Origin: Lysobacter sp. A03
GTDB lineage: Bacteria > Pseudomonadota > Gammaproteobacteria > Xanthomonadales > Xanthomonadaceae
Length of the DNA stretch: 64,000 bases
NCBI RefSeq assembly: GCF_000855665.1
Contig: NZ_JXSS01000106.1
Coordinates: 1 to 64,000, forward strand
Direction: 5' to 3'
Shown here piece after piece: positions 1 through 858 of the stretch. The notes under the pieces were generated by a model that saw nothing but the letters and a program-made list of their open reading frames with translations, made no database searches and was not told where the DNA came from. The position numbers and the translations under genes are program-made. The number at the start of each line of letters is the position of its first letter. Positions within the stretch are counted from its first letter, which is position 1.

Positions 1-64
1 GGTGGCAGTCCTGCTGGCCGGTCTGCTCTCACTGGACACGCTGTTCCGAGGTGACGCCGAGGAC
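1..64. other. Inverted internal segment of ccmB (inversion or contig-end fold-back)
   Basis: Read on the plus strand from base 2, these bases encode [20 protein letters not shown], a recognisable second membrane segment and following loop of CcmB. The N-terminus of the same protein lies on the minus strand from 202 leftward. The two readings meet in the 15 bases 50-64, which fit CcmB on both strands (GDAED on plus, VLGVT on minus). The simplest reading is that the stretch left of about 50 is inverted relative to a normal ccmB, between short inverted repeats. An assembly fold-back at the end of a contig would look identical. Confidence 0.7.
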
Positions 65-202
65 GAGTGCGAACAACACCACCACGAGCAGGGCAAACAA
101 CGCAGGCTGGAACGCATCGCCGCGCCGGCGCCACAGCAGGCGCAGGTCGCGCTTCATCAGCGCCTTTGCCGATCCGGGAAGGCCTGGCAGGGCGCCGCTC
201 AT
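29..202 (-). CDS. ccmB: CcmB N-terminal fragment (heme exporter membrane subunit), interrupted
   Basis: CcmB is the membrane subunit of the CcmAB transporter used in System I cytochrome c maturation. The ATG overlaps the ccmA stop codon (ATGA arrangement at 199-202), the usual ccmAB coupling. The first ~50 residues are normal: a basic start ([14 protein letters not shown]) followed by the first hydrophobic helix ([15 protein letters not shown]). Then the frame runs into unrelated residues (SEQRVQ) and a TGA at 29-31. A full CcmB is about 220 residues. The missing second helix is present on the opposite strand at 2-64, so the gene is broken here by an inversion, real or artefactual. Confidence 0.75.
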
Positions 203-858
203 GCGATCGCGCCGCTGGAATGGCGGACCATCTCGAGCATGCGGGTGCGCCCCGGCGGCGCCGCGTAGGCGCCGTGGGTCGTCACCAGGGCCGCCCCGCC
301 GCTGCGCAGGTGCGCCTGGATCATCCGGTTGACCAGCTCAATGCCCTCCAGATCGAGGTTGGCATAGGGCTCGTCCAGCAGCCACAGTGGCGCCGGCGAC
401 AACCACAGCCGTGCCAGCGAAAGCCGCTTTTTCTGTCCGGCGGAAAGCTGGCGGGCGAGCGCGTCCTCGAATCCGCCCAGTCCCACGATGGCCAACGCAT
501 TGATTGGCAACTGGTTGCGACGCCGCCCCTGCAGGCCGGAGAGAAATGCCAGGTTTTCCATCGCACTCAAGTCGGCCTTGAAACCGGGCAGGTGACCCAT
601 GTAGGCGATGGCGCGCGCGCGCCGCGACGCACGCGCCCGCTGCCCATCGATGTCCACCTCTCCACCGTCGGCGCGCAGCAGTCCGGCAAGCACGCGCAGC
701 AAGGTGGTCTTTCCCGACCCGTTGCCGCCTTGCACGAGCAGCGCTTCGCCGGCGTCCACGGAGAAATCCAGCGGGCCGAACACGGGGTCGTCGTTGCGTG
801 CGAAATGCAGGCCGCGGGCGGCGAGCAGGGGCGGGGCGGATCTATCGGCGGCGGTCAT
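199..858 (-). CDS. ccmA: Cytochrome c biogenesis heme exporter ATP-binding protein CcmA
   Basis: A 219-residue ABC ATPase that drives the CcmAB(CD) complex, which releases holo-CcmE during cytochrome c maturation at the inner membrane. Walker A is GGNGSGKTT (about 44-52), the signature is LSAGQKKR (139-146), and Walker B is LWLLDEP (159-165). The short length with no extra domain is typical of CcmA. It leads a minus-strand operon, and ccmB overlaps its stop. The rest of the ccm operon would lie left of the window. The two cytochromes c at about 26 kb are possible clients. Confidence 0.93.

Follow-up and report, generated by a model that had tools for sequence, protein, structure and literature searches.

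Within-gene inversion has reportedly been described for bacteria as intragenic invertons (Chanin et al. 2024, cited in PMC11868660), in which a segment lying between inverted repeats inside a gene can turn over. The gene studied here encodes CcmB (PF03379), the permease subunit of the heme-handling ABC transporter of Ccm System I. Spontaneous inversions at short repeats have been detected by sequencing reads in Salmonella cultures, where five of seven tested inversions were verified and a minimum of 12 bp of homology at the junction was deduced for inversions, as given in the parts of PMC3411829 drawn on here. Sequencing library preparation is also described as a source of inverted chimeric reads at inverted repeats; in the PDSM model, as set out in the sections of PMC10908179 used here, a strand becomes linked to its reverse complement where an inverted repeat lies close by, and nearly perfect repeats suffice for this.

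We analysed a stretch of 64,000 nucleotides (the window; G000:C109:1-64000) from Lysobacter sp. A03. It begins with base 1 of contig C109, and next to that end ccmB is read partly from one strand and partly from the other. We conclude that ccmB is almost certainly ordinary and intact in the cell, that it was cut between two abutting contigs, C109 and C48, and that the inverted sequence at the C109 end is most likely a fold-back introduced on the way to the assembly.

Results

On the minus strand, ccmB starts at position 202 and in the ORF list runs for 57 codons until its frame is closed by a stop at position 29. Only codons 1-46 of this frame are native (positions 64..202, minus strand), with the gene continuing at base 1 of C48, whilst residues 47-57 are read off an inverted tail. 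The native piece covers positions 2-40 of the Pfam CcmB model in one search and 2-39 in another. Its start is overlapped by 4 bases by an ORF for an ABC-transporter ATPase (199..858, minus strand; Pfam ABC_tran, 91 bits), which is called ccmA because it neighbours ccmB. The preliminary description had followed the minus-strand gene to about residue 50 and then to a premature stop; the stop is there, but the native sequence ends at codon 46.

The tail occupies positions 1-65 of the plus strand, with position 1 being the contig end, and is thus longer than the approximately 1-50 given earlier. Base for base it reproduces C48:53-117, from the second part of ccmB, read in the coding direction. The plus strand at 2-64 does encode a true, later segment of CcmB, as had been proposed for a membrane segment read there, and this segment is identical to the ccmB of C48. 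The two readings had further been said to agree with CcmB across positions 50-64. For the minus strand, agreement is confined to the residues LG, since it reads VLGVT where the gene has ALGGE. Bases 64-65 (CG) are compatible with both the tail and the native sequence.

A tail of 65 bases is by itself too short to separate an inverted allele from a fold-back. It could in principle come from an intragenic inverton, with some cells of the population carrying the 97-nt segment between the repeat arms turned over and ccmB thereby switched off.

The missing part of ccmB was found in the same assembly. A search of the strain's own genome with positions 1-1000 of the window returned, apart from C109, nothing but C48:53-117 and a weak match (68%) in C33. 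Window positions 1-65 agreed with the plus strand of C48 throughout (65 of 65), and identity stopped at the following base; judged by its length, an exact match of this kind is far beyond chance. Contamination by another strain was ruled out, the tail being identical to the genome's own C48. C48 (31,301 bases) starts inside ccmB in the normal orientation, and the 3' part of the gene is followed in normal order by ccmC, E, F, G, H and I. The corresponding Pfam matches are Cytochrom_C_asm (ccmC), CcmE, CcmF_C, Redoxin (ccmG) and CcmH, with TPR and Ig_CycH domains in the CcmI-type gene; the names ccmC, ccmG and ccmI are assigned partly from gene position.

Searched genome-wide, the Pfam CcmB model gave two complementary matches and no third. 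The first lies on the minus strand of C109 (model positions 2-40, 27.8 bits) and the second on the plus strand of C48 (model positions 38-215, 171.4 bits), both above the curated cut-off of 24.9, and together they span the whole family model. ccmB is therefore one gene in two pieces, on C109 and C48. As only these two complementary pieces occur in the genome, both a ccmB pseudogene and a second ccmB copy were ruled out. Among the matches listed, Lysobacter antarcticus GW1-59 was the nearest named one to the stretch of CcmB on C48 (98%); going by its coordinates, it is probably the same-genus genome G001. For an inverton the assembly offers a single inverted junction, plus the normal orientation on C48 with the right flank, which tends to speak against inversion; the second junction that an inversion would create was not found in the assembly by the search with positions 1-1000.

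Joining the two contigs restores a normal gene. In the coding direction the native window sequence ends ...GCACTCG and C48 begins CCCTCGGCGGCGAG; placed end to end, C109 and C48 give an open CcmB of 229 amino acids, 227 of which are identical to locus L169 of a relative assembled in one contig (G003). The same length is found in L169, L170, L171 and L208, the relatives compared for this, taking as start the methionine 47 codons upstream of the junction that is present in each. We then examined 89 related loci, selected for similarity to the portion of CcmB on C48, from nine same-genus genomes and the best 80 of at least 233 relatives; five pairs look like one genome represented twice, leaving about 84 distinct. 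All 89 are open across the junction in one frame and in the same sequence order, and the open frame reaches back 52 codons or more on the upstream side. The comparison with ccmB of close relatives suggested in the preliminary description thus finds the gene continuous throughout.

BLAST placed the two contig ends side by side in five of the nine same-genus relatives. In L169, L170, L171 and L175 the window match and the start of C48 overlap by 9 bases inside the repeat, and in L172 the placement agrees with an overlap of 7 bases. In L173, L174, L176 and L177 the BLAST match stops short of the junction on at least one side, and continuity there was read from the reading frames.

A short inverted repeat marks the point at which the native sequence gives way to the tail. 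In the intact gene its arms, CGCCCTCGGCG and CGCCGAGGACG, are 97 nt apart; the downstream arm, CGCCGAGGACG, is the site of the fold-back and occupies positions 55..65 of the window. The arms are complementary at 10 of 11 positions with a perfect core of 8 bp, shorter than the inverted copies of about 15 bp previously suggested. The start of C48 coincides exactly with the repeat, and the tail ends after 65 bases. A switch point at such a repeat, together with a tail that is identical to nearby sequence in inverted form and with C48 as the native neighbour, is what a fold-back contig end looks like. Inverted repeats flanking a segment are equally a feature of an inverton, though pairs of this kind are commonplace: in the window's 96 blocks of 666 bp, an 8-bp inverted pair with a spacer of 40-150 occurs in 76 and an 11-mer inverted pair with at most one mismatch in 58.

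Nor is the repeat kept among relatives, a property that would support an inverton without strictly defining one. Compared ungapped at the same positions, the 8-bp core is complementary in only 3 of the 89 relatives, two of which (L175 and L242) look like one genome, and a conserved inverted repeat was ruled out on this basis. The ccmB repeat is thus nothing special, being commonplace and rarely kept. A strong hairpin at the junction likewise found no support as the cause of the contig break: under the folding parameters applied, either the DNA or the RNA set, folding energy there is average for the window (MFE -33.6, compared with a mean of -34.0 and sd of 5.6 over 65 window tiles).

The base at the junction bears on how the two sequences were joined. 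The codon before Leu-Gly is GTC (Val) in the window, whereas relatives have GCN in 55 of 89 loci, GGN in 34 and GTN in none. The first bases of C48 fit a GCC codon, C48 base 1 being C, and the downstream arm has T. As T is absent at this codon position in relatives and C48 starts with C, the T of GTC probably derives from the fold-back tail; this assignment of the native junction base draws on the single terminal base of C48 together with the relatives. The mismatched base in the window would then be that of the downstream arm, which puts the switch beyond the 8-bp core, in or beside window positions 64-66, a direction suggested by one base. Such an outcome is expected if a coding strand with its 3' end at ...GGACG is extended by self-priming or cross-priming. 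A recombination crossover within the core would be expected to preserve C, the native base, at the left junction, and the T seen instead points away from an inversion.

We also checked the other contig ends of the assembly for tails of the same type. End stretches were fetched for 196 of 238 contig ends, and 122 were readable after 74 pieces with N within the first 60 bases were excluded; contig-end matches of other kinds were left out of the count. Besides the ccmB end, three of the 122 showed fold-back geometry. The last 24 bases of the C36 end (L141) equal C82:47-70 (L088). When 500 bases of C36 were searched against the one-contig relative G003, the match ran to base 486, with C82 beginning 6 bases further on and the C36 tail lying close by in inverted orientation. 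The C41 end (L146) finishes in 26 bases that recur as a perfect inverted copy within C41, the arms being 16 bases apart; in G003 this tail, too, maps in inverted orientation. At the C38 end (L143) the last 24 bases have a perfect inverted copy in the same contig with 3 bases between the arms. This end could be a natural hairpin; its last 18 bases were without a reported match in the relative, which speaks neither for nor against a fold-back. Fold-back tails thus recur at contig ends of this assembly, with the relative backing two of the three others.

The scan of contig ends also returned matches of other kinds. Exact end overlaps of 127 bases join C40 with C96 and link C55, C73 and C93, which we take to be the trace of a k=127 de Bruijn assembler. 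The starts of C27 (L034) and C54 (L060) form a 24-base dovetail with one mismatch and are probably adjacent, unjoined contigs; a short dovetail was also seen for C47 and C77. Between the C61 end (L165) and C43:112-138 (L050) there is a direct-geometry match of 27 bases, one of them mismatched, such as would arise if a read skipped ahead some 110 bases where the contig breaks off; C32 and C56 look like a forward jump as well. The start of C1 matches itself shifted by one base, like a simple repeat, and the end matches of C52 and C97 with C59 are presumably repeats. The remaining matches were 14-17 bases long.

Discussion

That the inverted end might be a contig-end fold-back, and so an assembly artefact, had been offered in the preliminary description as one of two readings, and it is the one borne out here. 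The tail matches C48 exactly, the CcmB Pfam match is split between the two contigs, relatives are continuous across the junction and other ends of the assembly carry tails of like geometry, all of which were observed directly. During library preparation or amplification, the coding-strand 3' end at ...CGCCGAGGACG would anneal to CGCCCTCGGCG, 97 nt upstream, through 8 perfect pairs, one mismatch and two more pairs. Extension of the annealed 3' end would produce a molecule turning back on itself, and an assembler using a read of such a molecule could extend the C109 end past the true sequence. Too few normal reads over the junction would then leave C109 and C48 unjoined. In this scheme we infer the priming of the strand, the stage of library preparation at which it occurred and the scarcity of spanning reads.

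The PDSM inverted chimeric reads, as presented in the parts of PMC10908179 used here, resemble the ccmB end in that a strand continues into its reverse complement beside an inverted repeat close at hand, and in that the repeat need only be nearly perfect. Those reads differ in being soft-clipped reads of human DNA, whereas the ccmB case is known from a contig-end tail alone. Set against the known CcmB family (PF03379), the gene is complete across both contigs and in the same order, the sole difference being the split in the assembly.

A molecule of the same shape might also have formed in the cell. A rare but real rearranged or fold-back molecule, arising by template switching in culture, could have been sequenced and then used by the assembler, and the short-repeat inversions detected by reads in Salmonella cultures lend this some precedent. 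The ccmB repeat, with 8 perfect pairs or 10 of 11, falls below the 12-bp homology cut-off stated in the portion of PMC3411829 used here, and the presence of the same type of tail at several contig ends of one assembly points to the library or the assembly. We consider such an origin very improbable.

A reversible inversion that switches off cytochrome c maturation, the other reading put forward at the outset, is slightly less probable still. Segments between inverted repeats within a gene are common to ccmB and the intragenic invertons of Chanin et al. 2024, a class reportedly established in bacteria. The ccmB repeat by comparison is short, rarely kept and ordinary, and the assembly shows one inverted junction beside the normal orientation. 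With C48 in the normal orientation, all 89 related loci continuous, a repeat that is both short and common and a T at the junction, the invertible-segment reading was not upheld, and it is highly doubtful that a minority of the strain's cells carry the 97-nt ccmB segment inverted. Were such a minority inversion real, it would yield cytochrome-c-deficient cells at low frequency.

A fold-back formed outside the cell remains by far the best account of the ccmB end, and the case serves as a caution. A contig-end fold-back can mimic an invertible switch and make a gene of a core pathway seem broken. Looking for the missing half in the other contigs of the same assembly largely settles such cases.
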